Shown piece after piece: positions 8,785-20,888 of a stretch of DNA of 37,680 nucleotides. The position numbers and the translations under genes are program-made. The notes under the pieces are model-generated. The model did no database searches, was not told the DNA's origin, and saw only the letters and a program-made list of their open reading frames with translations. The first letter of the stretch is position 1, and every line of letters starts with the position of its first letter. Source of the stretch: an uncultured bacterium (GTDB lineage: Bacteria > Planctomycetota > Phycisphaerae > Phycisphaerales > SM1A02); the NCBI GenBank assembly GCA_903927725.1, contig CAIYOC010000006.1, positions 1 through 37,680 on the forward strand. The letters run 5' to 3'.

Positions 8785-10368
8785 ATGGAGCACGAGCCCC
8801 GCAAGGCCACGACCCTCGACACCATCAGCCTGCTGCTGATCTCGTTCGCGCTCGCGATGACCTTCCGCGGATTCGTGATCGAGGGCTACGTGATCCCCAC
8901 CGGAAGCATGGCGCCCACGCTGATGGGCGAGCACCTGCGGCTGCGCAGCCCTGACACGGGCTACAGCTACCCGGCCGATGCAGCTCCGGTGATCGAATCG
9001 GCGCGCGCGGGGCGCGACTTCCAGCGCCCGATCGGCGATCCGATGGTCAGCCACACGGCGCCCACGCGGAGCGAGGCCAACATCCGTCTCGCACAGGATG
9101 CGCGCGTGGGCGACCGCATCCTGGTCACGAAGTTTCTCTGGCCGATCCAGCAGCCGCAGCGCTGGGACGTGGTCGTCTTCAAGAATCCGTGCGATCCGGT
9201 CGGCGATGCGACGTACTACATCAAGCGCCTCGTCGGCATGCCGGGCGAGCGGTTCGCGCTCGCTGACGGCGATGCCTTCACCGGCGCGCCCGACATGCCC
9301 GTGACCGGCATGCGCATCCAGCGCAAGCCTGAATCCGTGCAGCGCGCCGTCTTGCAGCCGGTCTGGAACAGCGACTACGCACCGATCGACCCGAGCGCGA
9401 TGCGGCAGCGCATGCGCGGCTCGTGGAGCGGCCCGCCGATGCGCGGGCAGGGGTGGTACACGAGCGATCCGCGCGCCTTCGTGTGGGGCGCGACCGGGCC
9501 GGCGCGGCTTGAATGGGTCTCGACCGACATCCAGCTCGATGACTGGAATGCCTACAACTCCACGCGCCCCGAGATCCCCCTCTTTGCCGTCGGTGACCTG
9601 CGCGTGGCGGCACACTGCACGCCGGCGTCGAGCGGCCTGTTCACGACGAGCCTGTCGATCGGCACGCGCTCGCACGTGATGAAGTTCGACGTCTCGGGCA
9701 GCAAGGCCACGCTCTCGGTCGTGCACGCCGAGAGCGGCGAGGTGAAGGCCACGGCGAGCGCGCCCATCGCACTGCCGGACGGCGCGTTCGAGCTCGAGTT
9801 CTGGCACATCGACCAACGCCTGCAGCTCTTCATCGATGGCGAGAGCGTGCTCACGCTCGACTACGAGTGGGATCCGCAGCAGCGGCTGCTCGCGAGCCAC
9901 AACGGCCGCACGATCGACCAGGTCCTGCAGAACCCATCGGCGCAGAAGCCCACGCCGACCACGCTCGCGTGGGAGTTCGGCGGCGGGCCCGTGACGCTGC
10001 GACGCATCCGCGTGGACCGCGACCTGTACTACCGGCCGGCGTTCCTCAATCCGGGCGACCAGTACCCGATGAACGGCGAGCCGATTCCCGGCCTGGCGTT
10101 CGGCGTCGACGTGAACCAGCCGCCGGTGATCGGCGACGGCGAATACGTGATGCTCGGCGACAACTCCGGTGCGAGCCGCGACAGCCGGCTCTGGGGCCGG
10201 CCGCACCCGCTCGTGTCGGTGCAGCTGGGCAACAGCAGCCCGTTCATCGTTCCCGAGGACCTCATGATCGGCAAGGCCTGGTGCGTCTACTTCCCGGCAC
10301 CGATGCGCCTGTCGCCCGGCAGCACGCCGTTCATTCCCGACTTCGGCGAACTTCGGTTCATTCGGTGA
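8785..10368 (+). CDS. lepB: Signal peptidase I with large inserted beta-rich domain
   Basis: A 527-residue membrane peptidase of family S26 that removes signal peptides from exported proteins. One N-terminal membrane segment (about 12-30, 'ISLLLISFALAMTFRGFVI') precedes the nucleophile Ser41 in 'VIPTGSMAPTL'. The general base is Lys147 in 'YYIKRLVGMPGE'. The final box is 'VMLGDNSGASRDSRLWG' (455-471). Between the Lys and the last box lie about 300 residues, against a few tens in small family members. Residues about 265-410 look like a jelly-roll/LamG-type sandwich ('GAFELEFWHIDQRLQLFIDG' is typical). A second insert separates Ser41 from the Lys. Catalytic residues are intact. It starts 12 bp after ricT; the TAG stop of ricT is part of a TAGCAT motif 9 nt before this ATG. 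Confidence 0.93.
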   Translation: MEHEPRKATTLDTISLLLISFALAMTFRGFVIEGYVIPTGSMAPTLMGEHLRLRSPDTGYSYPADAAPVIESARAGRDFQRPIGDPMVSHTAPTRSEANIRLAQDARVGDRILVTKFLWPIQQPQRWDVVVFKNPCDPVGDATYYIKRLVGMPGERFALADGDAFTGAPDMPVTGMRIQRKPESVQRAVLQPVWNSDYAPIDPSAMRQRMRGSWSGPPMRGQGWYTSDPRAFVWGATGPARLEWVSTDIQLDDWNAYNSTRPEIPLFAVGDLRVAAHCTPASSGLFTTSLSIGTRSHVMKFDVSGSKATLSVVHAESGEVKATASAPIALPDGAFELEFWHIDQRLQLFIDGESVLTLDYEWDPQQRLLASHNGRTIDQVLQNPSAQKPTPTTLAWEFGGGPVTLRRIRVDRDLYYRPAFLNPGDQYPMNGEPIPGLAFGVDVNQPPVIGDGEYVMLGDNSGASRDSRLWGRPHPLVSVQLGNSSPFIVPEDLMIGKAWCVYFPAPMRLSPGSTPFIPDFGELRFIR

Positions 10369-13672: not shown

Positions 13673-16255
13673 TCAGCCGGTCCAGTTTCCCAAGAGCACG
13701 CCCAGGTCGGCGCCATCGGTCGTTCCGTCGGCATTCAGGTCACCGGCCACGGTGGCCCAACCACCGAGCAGCACGCCCAGGTCGGCGCCGTTCACGAGTC
13801 CATCGCCATTGAAGTCGCCGATGATCGCCTCGCATGCATCGATGATCCCGTTGGCGTTCGCATCGCCACCGGACTGCGCGATCTGGCATCGATCGGCCAC
13901 GCCGTTCTGGTCGCAGTCGGATCCGAACCGCCAGACGCGTGCGGCACCGGTGATCGAGGTCGACTCGACCGATTCGCTCGCACCGAGGATCGCCAGGTCA
14001 CGCACGATGGCCACGCTCTCGCCCACGCTCACGCGACCGACCTCGACGGGCGCGCTGCCGAGCGGCCACTCATACGCACGCACGCCCGAAGCCAGGGTGG
14101 CGAAATCCTGCTGCGCCACGAGCACGCGACCCGCAGTCATCGCCACGCCGTTGCCGAAGCGCGCACCCTGCGCCGTCGGGCCGCTGAGCACCGGACCCGC
14201 TTGCCACGCACCACCAACGCGGCGCCACGTGAAGACCGCGCCCTGACGCTCACCCTGCTGCGGAGCACCGGCGGCGACGAGCGAACCGTTGCAGGCGACC
14301 GCATGACCGAGCCGTGCATCAGGGTCGGCGATCGGTTCGAGATCGCTGCCGATGCGTTCCGGGGCGGACCACGTCGATCCATCGCGCATCGACACCCACA
14401 CCTGGCCGGCACCCGCCGAGGCGTATGGCGCACCGATGACGAGCATGGGGCCATCGATGGCCAGCGACCAGCCGAAATAGCCGAGCTCGCTCGCCGTCGA
14501 GGGCACGAGCCGCTGCCTGAACACGTACTGGCCATTGACCTGCTGTTCGTAGATGTGGACCGCACCGCCGCCCGCTGGATCGCTGCCCTCGCCGGGCGCG
14601 CCGACCGCCAGCCACGGACCGGCCAGCACCACGCTGCTGCCGAAGCGACCCGCGAAAGCCAGCGTGGTCGACTGCAGCACCTGCACCTGTGACCACGCCG
14701 TGCCCGTGCGTCGGAACACATACGCCGCACCGGCGCTGTTGAGCCCGTTCACGTCACGACCGAGTGCACCGACCACGGCCCAGTCGCCCGCGAGCGCCAC
14801 AGCGCTGCCGAACTGGTCATTGCTGACTGCCGCACCGTGGCGCAGCGTTGCCTGCCGCGCCGGCCTGTCGTTCGTGATCGTCCAGACCTCAGCCAGGCCG
14901 ACATCGACCGTGGGCGAGTTCTCACCAGGCGAGCCGACGATGAAGCCGACGCCATCGGTCGCCACGACGCGACCAAAGAGATCGCCGCTGGTGCTCTGCC
15001 CGCCGGGGGCATTCATGAGGAAGCCCGATGAGCAGGCTGCCACGCCGCCTGCGCACGAACCCTGCGCCGGGAGGTCGCACGAATCGAGCCGGCCGTTGCC
15101 GTCGCAATCGCTTGCCCGGCCCTGCGCGATGTCCTGCACATCGACCCGGCCGTTCCCATCGCAATCGCCGAGCAACGTGTCGGGTACCGCGCAGCGGTAG
15201 GACGAGATCGCCGCGAGCGTCTCGCCGATCGTGCGTGCGTTGTGCGCACCCTGCGTCGATGCCGAAGGCTCCACGCCCGTCGCCGCCCCCTGGAAGCTCA
15301 CGTTGGGATTCGAGAAGTGGTCGATGCGCGCACCCGGCGCATACGCCATGACCGTGCGGTACGTGGTGCCGTTGGTGCCCGAGAATCGCCATCCGACGCT
15401 GTAGGAGAAGATGCCGCCGCCCGTACAGCCGCCACCATCGCCCGAAGCGTGGCAGCACCCCATGTTGTGACCGAGTTCGTGGGCGAAGGTCTGGCTCGCC
15501 AGGCACGACTGCGCCGTCACGCTGAAGCCCGTCCCCGATGCACCCGGGTCGTTGTACGGCATGAGGTAGCCGATGCCGCAGTACTCGCCGCTCGTGCGGA
15601 TCATGGCGACCAGGTCCGCGCCACAGGCGTTGCGCAGGTCGTGCACGTCATCGAGGATGCCGTCGCCCTGCGCCGCAAGGCTCGAGAGATCGCTGCCGAA
15701 ATCCTGCTCGACGTAGTTGATCTCCATGCGCAGCACGTTGCGCAATCGCGCCGCAAGCCCCGAGTTGATGTACGCCGTGTTCGAGGAGGCCACCGCGAGA
15801 TCACACAGCGCGTTGAGCTGGTTCGCGCCACCTGCCTGCGTGCGCGCAGCGGGCGTGGTCAGGATCAGCACATCGACGCGTGGACTGTCGGGGCAGCCGC
15901 CGGCGAGCGAGCCGTTCTGTGGTTTGGCACCGGCAAGCGCGGTGCCGTCGACTGACCCCGCGCACGAGCGCGATCCATCTTCCGGGATCGGCATCCACTC
16001 GATGGGTGCGTCCGCACGACCGAGGGCCTGGCGCCGCTCGCCACTGGGCAGGAGCGCGGCACCCGCGACCAAACCATCGCGCTCGACGAGCGTGAGCGTG
16101 ATCGAGCGCTCCGCATGCTTGGCCCAGCGGTAACGCGCCACGCCCGGTTCGGCGTGCTCGGCCACGGCCTCGAAGGCAACTCCATCCACCACGCACGCAG
16201 GCGGCAGGTCAGTGAGCGCAGCGAGGCCAAGCAGCAAGACGGGGATCGTGGGCAT
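13673..16255 (-). CDS. Secreted reprolysin-like zinc metalloprotease with FG-GAP and dockerin-like modules
   Basis: An 860-residue exported protein. A signal peptide (1-20) and a propeptide-like region lead to a metzincin domain of about 125-350. Its zinc site 'FAHELGHNMGCCHA' gives HExxHxxGxxH with His259, Glu260, His263 and His269, and a Met-turn 'TVMAYAPG' (Met303). This resembles the M12B-like proteases in which the third ligand is His. Next are two planctomycete 'GDCDGNGRVD.QD / DCDGNGRLDSCD' repeats (about 360-400). A string of integrin-like FG-GAP repeats follows ('LFGRVVATDG', 'QFGSAVALAGDW', 'RFGSSVVLAGPW', 'YFGWSLAIDGP'), likely a beta-propeller. Finally there are another DC.QNG repeat and two dockerin-like Ca loops ('GDFNGDGLVNGADLGVLLGG', 'GDLNADGTTDGADLGVLLGN'). 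TATCGT sits 6 nt before the ATG. Confidence 0.92.
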   Translation of the reverse strand: MPTIPVLLLGLAALTDLPPACVVDGVAFEAVAEHAEPGVARYRWAKHAERSITLTLVERDGLVAGAALLPSGERRQALGRADAPIEWMPIPEDGSRSCAGSVDGTALAGAKPQNGSLAGGCPDSPRVDVLILTTPAARTQAGGANQLNALCDLAVASSNTAYINSGLAARLRNVLRMEINYVEQDFGSDLSSLAAQGDGILDDVHDLRNACGADLVAMIRTSGEYCGIGYLMPYNDPGASGTGFSVTAQSCLASQTFAHELGHNMGCCHASGDGGGCTGGGIFSYSVGWRFSGTNGTTYRTVMAYAPGARIDHFSNPNVSFQGAATGVEPSASTQGAHNARTIGETLAAISSYRCAVPDTLLGDCDGNGRVDVQDIAQGRASDCDGNGRLDSCDLPAQGSCAGGVAACSSGFLMNAPGGQSTSGDLFGRVVATDGVGFIVGSPGENSPTVDVGLAEVWTITNDRPARQATLRHGAAVSNDQFGSAVALAGDWAVVGALGRDVNGLNSAGAAYVFRRTGTAWSQVQVLQSTTLAFAGRFGSSVVLAGPWLAVGAPGEGSDPAGGGAVHIYEQQVNGQYVFRQRLVPSTASELGYFGWSLAIDGPMLVIGAPYASAGAGQVWVSMRDGSTWSAPERIGSDLEPIADPDARLGHAVACNGSLVAAGAPQQGERQGAVFTWRRVGGAWQAGPVLSGPTAQGARFGNGVAMTAGRVLVAQQDFATLASGVRAYEWPLGSAPVEVGRVSVGESVAIVRDLAILGASESVESTSITGAARVWRFGSDCDQNGVADRCQIAQSGGDANANGIIDACEAIIGDFNGDGLVNGADLGVLLGGWATVAGDLNADGTTDGADLGVLLGNWTG

Positions 16256-17894: not shown

Positions 17895-20888
17895 TCACTC
17901 GATCGTGATGAACTCGCTGCTGGCCAGCAGCACCTGCGCGTACAGCCCCCACGCGGCGTCCTCGCCGAGCGTGGCCTGGCTCGCGACGAAGGCGAGTGCG
18001 GCATTCGCTTCGCTCGCCGTCGGCTCGCGGCCGAGCGCCATGCGGTACGCCTCGTGGACCATGGCATGGCCCTGGTGCTCGGCCTGCTGCGCCGGCACAC
18101 ATGCCGCCGCGGCAAGCACGCGTTCGCGCAGGCGCTTTGCCCACGCACGGCTCTCCTCGTGCACGAACGGGCTGTTGAGCATGAAGAGCGCCTGCGGCGC
18201 GATCACCGTCTGCGCGCGCGCATCGACGGTCACGCTCGCGTCGGTGTAGTCGAAGATCCCGAAGAAGCCGAAGAGCGCGTTGCGGATCACCGGCAGGTAG
18301 AGGCTCCTGCGCGGCGCCCCGTACTGTGCTCCATTGGCGCTCTGGTCATTCGTCACGTACTCGAAGTTGCCGCCCGTCAGCAGCGACCCGCCCATCGTGC
18401 GGTCGAGCGATCCGCTGACCGCCAGCACGCTGTCGCGGATCGCCTCGGCTTCGAGCCGGCGCGGCGTCCACCGCCAGAGCAGCCGATTGTCGGGATCGAT
18501 CGCGCTGGCGATGGCATCAGGCGTCGAGGATCTCGTGTACGCCTCGGTCAGCATGATCTGGCGATGCAATCGCTTGAGATCCCAGCCGTGTCGGATGAAG
18601 TCGCGCGCGAGCCAGTCCAGGAGCTCGGGATGCGAGGGCCTGCCGCCGCGCGTGCCGAAGTCGCTTGGGGTCTCGACGATGCCGCGGCCGAAGTGCCAGT
18701 GCCAGACGCGGTTCACGAAGACGCGTGCGGTCAGCGGGTGCTCGTCATCCACGAGCCACTGCGCGAGCTCGAGCCTGCCGCTGGATCGTTCGGGAATTGC
18801 CGGGAGATCCGTGCCTTTGGAGAGCGGCCGCGGAGCACCACGCGCCACCTTCGGCCCCGGTGCCACGGTGTGATCGCCACGCACATGCACCGCAAGGTCA
18901 CCGGGCTTCTCCTGGTCGGTCACGGCCAGCACCATGACCGGCGACGGCGGCATCGACTGCGTCAAGCGATCGCGTTCGGTGGCCAGTCGGGCCAGCAGCT
19001 GTCGATCGTTGGCCTCGCGTGATGCCTCGAGGGCAGCCGAAACGGCGAAGGGGCCCGTCGGCCCGAGCAGCGCAACGCGATCCGAGTCGGGCGAGGGATC
19101 ATCGAGTCGCTCGCGCGGTTCGACGGCCTCACCATCGGCGAAGAGTGTGGACCAGGCACCTGCGGCCGCCTGTGCCCGCGACGCAAGATCCGCGGCCAAC
19201 ACCTCGCGATCGCGCATCGGGCCATGCAGTTCACCGCGCCACTCTGCAAGCCATGGCTCACGGTCGAGCGCATCGCGCACCTGCACGATGAGCGCCGCCG
19301 GCACGCCGAGCTCCGCACCGAACGCAGCCGCTGACGCGGTCCGTTGATCCGACTGGCCGACCGGTACGAGTTCCACACGGTCGATGTGCGGGAAGGGACC
19401 ATCACGCACGAGCGCGATCTCGTGTTCGCCCGCCGTCAGCTCAAGGCGCGCCGCCACCTGCCACTGCTGGCCCTGCGGATGGAACGAGCCGGTGTCCGCA
19501 CCAAGGGCATCCTGCGCCGCTGGCATTCCATCGAGCTCGACCTGCACCGGACGCGCCTCATCACTCGCGGCACGCACGCGGAGTTCGTGCGGACCATCGA
19601 CCTCGGCACGCAGTCGCCACGCCACGCGTCCCACGCCGGACCCACCGGTGCGCACGACGCCGATGCCAACGCCCCAATGGTCACGATCGATGACGAGGCC
19701 CTGCAGCGTGGCCTGGTCCTCGGCTTCGCGCGATGGCGCGGCGGCCGGAAGATCCGCCGCAGCGTGAAGGATCGGCACGGCCCGCGCCACCCACGCTGCC
19801 TGCAGGCGCGCATCGGCTCGCTGCGTCGCGCCCTTGAGTGCCCTGGCCGTTCGCTCGGTGGCGGCGACGTGCTCGGCACGCGCTGCCACGGCATCGTTCG
19901 CTGCTGCCTCGCGCTCGAGCGCTCGGGCCACGGTCGCGACGCTCGCCATCGTGCGCGTGCTGTGGAGGACTCCTGCGAGCGCGAAGTACTGGTCCTGTGA
20001 GACCGGATCGAACTTGTGGTCGTGGCAGCGAGCGCAGCCGATGGTCTGGCCCATGAACGCGCGGCCGATCACATCGACCTGCTCATCGACCATGTCGAAG
20101 ACGAGCTTCTCCTTGTCGGGCTCGGCGAGCACCTTGGGGCCCAGCACCAGGAACCCTGTGGCCGTGATGCAATCGGCGGCAGCGGGGGATGAGCGCGCAT
20201 CAGGCATCAGGTCGCCGGCAACCTGCATCGTGATGAAGCGATCGATCGGCAGGTTGTCGTTGAAGGCGCGAACGACCCAGTCACGCCAGCGGAAGGCGTT
20301 GCCGAACGCGGTGTTCTCGTCGAGACCGTTGCTGTCCGCGTAGCGCGCGACATCAAGCCAGTGACGAGCCCAACGCTCGCCGTACGCCGGGCTGGCGAGC
20401 AATCGGTCGATCACGCGGGACCAGGCATCGGGGCGCGTGTCTTCCTCGAAGGCACGAATCTCGTCGTAGGTCGGCGGCAAGCCGGTCAGGTCGAGCGTGG
20501 CCCGCCGAAGGAGCGTGCGCCGATCGGCCCGGCCCTGCGGGATCACGCCTTGCGCCTGCATGGCGTGGACCAGGAAACGATCGATGTCCCTGATCGAAGA
20601 CGTCGTGCCCGCAGGCTTGGGTGGGCGAGGATGGCCCATCGGCTGATACGCCCAGTGGTCACGCTCGATGAGGGCTGCCTTGGTTCTCCAGATGGCCGCC
20701 GCATCCGGCTCGGCCGGGGCCGAGGCATCGACCATGGCGTGGTCGGCATCCTTGGGCAATGTGGGTTCGTCGGGCAGGGGGCAGGCCAGGCCGCGGGGCG
20801 CGGGACCAACCGCGGCCAGCAGGCTGGCCCACAGCAGCGCACCCTGCAGGGAACGGCGAGCCGAGGGATTCGCCTTGGGCCATGGCAC
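17895..20888 (-). CDS. DUF1549/DUF1553 (PSD1) secreted protein with c-type heme motif
   Basis: A 997-residue exported protein. A basic start and hydrophobic stretch ('RRSLQGALLWASLLAAVGPA') form the export signal. DUF1549 (PSCyt2) spans about 98-300, with 'LLRRATLDLTGLPPT', 'YGERWARHWLDVARYADSNG', and the heme-binding CxxCH at 285-289 in 'IGCARCHDHKFDP'. A coiled segment and a carbohydrate-binding-like sandwich ('GPHELRVRAASDEARPVQVE') fill the middle. DUF1553 ends the protein, about 690-960, with 'VFVNRVWHWHFGRGIVETPS', 'WTPRRLEAEAIRDSVLAVSG' and 'FMLNSPFV'. The N-terminal PSCyt1 domain common in relatives is missing. The start is GTG, backed by TTGGTC-17 nt-TAGGAT ending 6 nt upstream; an ATG 5 nt downstream is out of frame. 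It pairs with DUF1501. Confidence 0.93.
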   Translation of the reverse strand: MPWPKANPSARRSLQGALLWASLLAAVGPAPRGLACPLPDEPTLPKDADHAMVDASAPAEPDAAAIWRTKAALIERDHWAYQPMGHPRPPKPAGTTSSIRDIDRFLVHAMQAQGVIPQGRADRRTLLRRATLDLTGLPPTYDEIRAFEEDTRPDAWSRVIDRLLASPAYGERWARHWLDVARYADSNGLDENTAFGNAFRWRDWVVRAFNDNLPIDRFITMQVAGDLMPDARSSPAAADCITATGFLVLGPKVLAEPDKEKLVFDMVDEQVDVIGRAFMGQTIGCARCHDHKFDPVSQDQYFALAGVLHSTRTMASVATVARALEREAAANDAVAARAEHVAATERTARALKGATQRADARLQAAWVARAVPILHAAADLPAAAPSREAEDQATLQGLVIDRDHWGVGIGVVRTGGSGVGRVAWRLRAEVDGPHELRVRAASDEARPVQVELDGMPAAQDALGADTGSFHPQGQQWQVAARLELTAGEHEIALVRDGPFPHIDRVELVPVGQSDQRTASAAAFGAELGVPAALIVQVRDALDREPWLAEWRGELHGPMRDREVLAADLASRAQAAAGAWSTLFADGEAVEPRERLDDPSPDSDRVALLGPTGPFAVSAALEASREANDRQLLARLATERDRLTQSMPPSPVMVLAVTDQEKPGDLAVHVRGDHTVAPGPKVARGAPRPLSKGTDLPAIPERSSGRLELAQWLVDDEHPLTARVFVNRVWHWHFGRGIVETPSDFGTRGGRPSHPELLDWLARDFIRHGWDLKRLHRQIMLTEAYTRSSTPDAIASAIDPDNRLLWRWTPRRLEAEAIRDSVLAVSGSLDRTMGGSLLTGGNFEYVTNDQSANGAQYGAPRRSLYLPVIRNALFGFFGIFDYTDASVTVDARAQTVIAPQALFMLNSPFVHEESRAWAKRLRERVLAAAACVPAQQAEHQGHAMVHEAYRMALGREPTASEANAALAFVASQATLGEDAAWGLYAQVLLASSEFITIE

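Follow-up and report, generated by a model that had tools for sequence, protein, structure and literature searches.

A signal peptidase I with a predicted galectin-like cap, found throughout the Planctomycetota

The window analysed here, a stretch of 37,680 nucleotides from an uncultured Phycisphaerales bacterium of the SM1A02 lineage, carries a signal peptidase I gene (lepB, Table 1) whose product is probably a housekeeping enzyme bearing a phylum-wide, galectin-like cap that is docked on the catalytic core and acts generally, not on dockerin-tailed proteins in particular. Signal peptidase I (SPase I) is an essential export enzyme, and we know of no conserved motifs in its variable domain II and of no clear function for it. 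An entire phylum, whose cell envelopes are unusual, has at this domain II position a cap that is distinct, conserved and foldable, and in the SPase family surveyed here the cap usually sits in the sole SPase I detected, so that the purpose of domain II can be tested in the planctomycete enzyme. The literature that we searched, which took in few subscription papers, yielded no description of a SPase I of this sandwich type.

The reading frame, on the plus strand of the SM1A02-lineage contig, encodes 527 amino acids and matched both Pfam PF10502 (Peptidase_S26; E 1.2e-21, 77.8 bits, cut-off 22.9) and NCBIfam TIGR02227, signal peptidase I (1e-21, 77.5 bits, cut-off 47), and the closest solved sequences are the E. 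coli SPase I entries. The PF10502 match is split over three separated stretches, because extra sequence has been inserted between the boxes. Homologues, 32-99% identical along almost their entire length, were found in 80 loci, the best relatives kept from our genome collection, which look planctomycete; bins titled Bacteroidia, Limnohabitans or Chitinophaga (L005, L046, L055) hold a Phycisphaerae-type gene, and these record names are apparently wrong. Residues S41, K147, S464, D466 and R468 are invariant in 56 homologues, with Ser41 lying in IPTGSMAPT, Lys147 (codon 9223-9225) in YYIKR and the last box reading GDNSGASRDSR, which bears out an earlier note that had read this sequence as a signal peptidase I with an intact Ser41/Lys147 dyad and GDNS...RDSR box. 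The same 56 homologues also share G496, A498, V501, P504, R524 and I526 in the C-terminal core segment. By its family matches and conserved residues the product is an S26 type I signal peptidase, which would be expected from its sequence to cleave signal peptides and to have the topology proposed below. In the AlphaFold2 model, the helix at residues 10-30 is followed by a strand at 32-36 and then by Ser41, the anchor thus preceding the Ser box.

Table 1. Coordinates of the signal peptidase I gene, its segments and its upstream neighbour in the window.
Feature	Position	Strand	Basis
Gene upstream of lepB, RicT/YaaT family (PSP1-type), with uncertain start codon	7417..8772	+	NCBIfam NF041131, E 2.8e-37
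Signal peptidase I gene (lepB), full ORF, 527 aa	8785..10368	+	ORF, Pfam and NCBIfam matches
Single N-terminal membrane helix, residues 10-30	8812..8874	+	Predicted helix, hydrophobic sequence
Ser box, residues 34-48 (GYVIPTGSMAPTLMG), catalytic Ser41 at 8905-8907	8884..8928	+	Invariant in 56 homologues
Small insertion, residues 49-105, degenerate zinc-ribbon-like	8929..9099	+	SPDTGY ... DPM versus CPxCG ... CPMC elsewhere
Lys-box core segment, residues 106-165 (GDRILV ... RWDVVVFKNP ... YYIKRLVGMPGE)	9100..9279	+	Pfam stretch 106-161, invariant K147
Conserved connector, residues 166-230, includes RKPESVQRAV	9280..9474	+	RKPE.VQ motif kept in homologues
Predicted concanavalin-A/galectin-like beta-sandwich, SPase domain II position, residues about 231-418	9475..10038	+	AlphaFold2, Foldseek, phylum-wide profile A3
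Last catalytic box, residues 448-475 (GDNSGASRDSRLWGR)	10126..10209	+	S464, D466, R468 invariant
C-terminal core segment, residues 495-527 (IGKAWCVYFPAP ... DFGELRFIR)	10267..10365	+	Invariant residues

Between Lys147 and the GDN box (458) we counted 311 residues, close to the 300 or so given earlier, and the insert is folded in the prediction. A full-length AlphaFold2 model built with the 56-sequence alignment was confident nearly throughout (mean pLDDT 91.8, pTM 0.89), with values of about 90-98 in the insert blocks and a set of beta strands over residues about 231-412; the insert modelled by itself reached a pLDDT of 85.6. The earlier note had named disorder, together with variability in close relatives, as what would speak against a specific binding role, and the insert shows neither, being confidently folded and conserved. 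In Foldseek searches the whole model retrieved E. coli SPase I (1t7d, E 5.5e-7, TM by target 0.52) and also concanavalin-like sandwiches such as laminarinases, alginate lyases, galectins and CBM66, and with the insert alone the top 47 matches were galectins (E about 1e-6, TM by target about 0.6), followed by GH16 glucanases. At the level of sequence the insert had no significant match to any Pfam family, and a known Pfam domain was rejected as its identity: no LamG family was listed for 32 insert sequences and 8 further ones at E values up to 1, Galectin PF00337 matched 3 of the 32 with a best E of 0.05, below significance, and a profile of the insert gave sub-threshold matches only (galectin, TFIID and others) against PDB sequences. 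The insert is thus predicted with high confidence to be a concanavalin-A/galectin-like sandwich of about 185 residues, and the LamG-like jelly roll proposed earlier is right as a fold; the likeness to LamG and galectins is one seen in fold, by Foldseek, and not in Pfam family matches.

The domain is not a peculiarity of this lineage. A Phycisphaerae profile of the insert matched 121 of the 150 genomes of the class and, once widened to other classes (A3), 285 of the 294 genomes from the Planctomycetota, or 273 of 280 when only good genomes are counted. A matching genome had one to three copies. When distant matches were sampled, 20 out of 20 lay within SPase I-like reading frames. A tree inferred from 173 core columns of a joint alignment separates 28 planctomycete SPases with the insert from 21 without it, by a branch that has support 99/94 and is present in all bootstrap trees, a result to be read as one cluster and not as a dated origin, since the columns come from the joint alignment and the sequences are planctomycete only, with no outgroup. 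At 10156-10188 the box reads GDNS, as it does consistently in insert-bearing planctomycete SPases (GDNT in some), and the insert together with the GDNS/GDNT box offers a candidate sequence marker for Planctomycetota, searched for within the phylum. Tandem insert-bearing SPase I genes occur in several Phycisphaerae and in other planctomycetes (G163:C17, G257:C6, G277:C2, L179, L188 and similar). The galectin-like cap is a general feature of the planctomycete export machinery and not an arrangement specific to a single group of secreted proteins.

The gene appears to be the organism's only SPase I. A single PF10502 gene is present in the genome, and the sole PF00717 match, considered as a second SPase, was rejected as it is LexA; the second, standard-size LepB for which the earlier note had suggested a search was not found in this assembly of 283 contigs, from which, at 93% completeness, such a gene could be missing. 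As the sole SPase I found in the genome, the enzyme presumably processes all Sec signal peptides. A survey of the SPase family gave a match in 59 of 61 genomes, with a clear standard-size enzyme besides in three only (G452, G415 and G221), a count from which fragments were left out, as was a weak second match (G444); because a standard-size second SPase occurs in these three genomes only, the large form is most likely the housekeeping enzyme of the family. Some planctomycetes do have both forms, and in those a division of labour is possible. The RicT gene is the upstream neighbour of lepB in 58 of the 80 related loci, several loci being without upstream DNA, and this adjacency looks like a stable housekeeping context. 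Elsewhere in the window, an 860-aa protein with a reprolysin-like M12B metallopeptidase domain and FG-GAP repeats is encoded at 13673-16255 on the minus strand, and a PSCyt2/PSD1 (DUF1549/DUF1553) protein at 17895-20888.

Across the phylum, the residues of the insert that are invariant or nearly so are Y257, N258, D271, D343, R412 and D413, with Y415/Y416 next. They precede the first long strand or stand at its start, occupy one tight turn, or lie where the last strand ends; the middle strands are poorly conserved, and conservation over the strands in general is low (mean top-residue frequency 0.26-0.46). The six leading residues may keep the sandwich together or fasten it to the catalytic core, and their placement suggests that the cap has a general function near the substrate cleft, whether structural or in docking; the cap-core interface, the burial of the invariant residues and the Ser-Lys distance are here deduced from sequence order and secondary structure. 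In the mechanism that we propose, one N-terminal membrane helix would anchor the Ser41/Lys147 enzyme so that its catalytic domain lies outside the cytoplasmic membrane, and the sandwich, as the variable domain II or cap, would most likely pack on the core through its edge invariants. This single helix and the position of the insert in the fold would put it on the outer face beside the active site, where it had been placed before. The cap would then act generally on preproteins bound for export, either because it frames or shields the substrate cleft or because it docks to the membrane, to the translocon or to another planctomycete envelope component. We hypothesise further, and tentatively, that domain II may have been replaced once, before the radiation of the phylum, by a galectin-like cap (accompanied in many lineages by a zinc ribbon between the Ser and Lys boxes), coupling cleavage to a planctomycete-specific component of the envelope or translocon and yielding a phylum-defining SPase I.

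Given that its closest folds are galectins, GH16 enzymes and other carbohydrate-active sandwiches, and that weak sub-threshold galectin matches were seen in sequence, the sandwich could instead be a working lectin which binds a glycan, a peptidoglycan fragment or a glycosylated preprotein, and so tethers the peptidase or selects glycoproteins. We consider this unlikely, since invariants at the domain edges and in one turn, together with variable strand faces, argue against a conserved sugar site, no aromatic or polar sugar-binding set appears to be kept on the little-conserved strands, and the same fold has many non-sugar roles. The free variation of the strand faces, and invariants that could form a purely structural network, would also be compatible with the insert being structural padding, an inherited fold merely stabilising the core; but 97% of the sampled genomes of a diverse phylum retain the domain although a short LepB form exists, which suggests that the domain is needed and makes padding a distinctly improbable account. 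A further reading is that of a specialised peptidase: the earlier note had suggested that the extra domain could select or hold unusual preproteins, dockerin-tailed ones for example, and at least 17 dockerin matches are indeed present in the genome, while the large cap is predicted in one domain assembly with the active site. This proposal did not survive the distribution, on which dockerin specificity was rejected: 18 of the 20 dockerin-free genomes of the class among those listed keep the insert, the domain is phylum-wide, it sits in the sole SPase I found in the genome, and a C-terminal dockerin is far from the signal peptide, leaving very little probability for such a role. An assembly or reading-frame artefact, whether a two-gene fusion or a chance open frame, might be suspected in a draft of 283 contigs but is refuted by conservation, the identical architecture recurring in 80 loci and in single-contig genomes, and has a negligible chance of being correct.

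In addition to the sandwich, the enzyme carries a second, smaller insertion, of about 50 residues, which separates the Ser box from the Lys box. Its counterpart in other planctomycete SPases with the sandwich has CPxCG...CPMC or similar, and two CxxC motifs were found in this segment in 18 of 127 sequences, a sample in which close relatives of the window are over-represented; distant planctomycete homologues with a CxxC...CxxC insertion include L155, L156, L172, L175 and L184. By its motifs, the CxxC-bearing insertion of other planctomycetes may bind zinc. The protein studied here has SPDTGY...DPM at the CxxC positions, so that its zinc-ribbon-like segment has lost the cysteines. Since some deep members are without the ribbon segment altogether, the feature common to the group is the sandwich and not the ribbon.

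Compared with galectins, LamG domains and GH16 enzymes, all concanavalin-A-like, the insert has a similar predicted fold but a sequence identity of about 10-17% without a significant Pfam match, it is embedded within a peptidase, and no conserved carbohydrate face is apparent in it. The short, standard-size planctomycete LepB belongs to the same catalytic family and phylum as the insert-bearing form, and sometimes to the same genome, but differs in having about 53 residues between Lys and GDN, in its box, which is mostly GDNR, and in lying on the other side of the tree. With E. coli LepB (PDB 1t7d, 1b12; S26A) the protein has in common the Ser/Lys dyad, boxes B-E and an N-terminal anchor, which in E. 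coli consists of two membrane helices and here of one. In E. coli LepB, too, the Lys box and the last box are separated by an additional beta domain, domain II, and it is this cap that the planctomycete insert represents in a large and conserved form: the Lys-to-last-box stretch is 127 residues in E. coli against 311 here, and the insert profile had no match to E. coli LepB. The two also differ in the box (GDNR in E. coli, GDNS here) and in the gap from Ser to Lys, 55 residues in E. coli LepB, which is without the insertion there, and 106 in the planctomycete protein. The S26-like SipA of Streptococcus pyogenes combines a core with a non-catalytic cap in the same position as in the planctomycete protein, but its cap is small and its catalytic residues are lost (PMC4049620).
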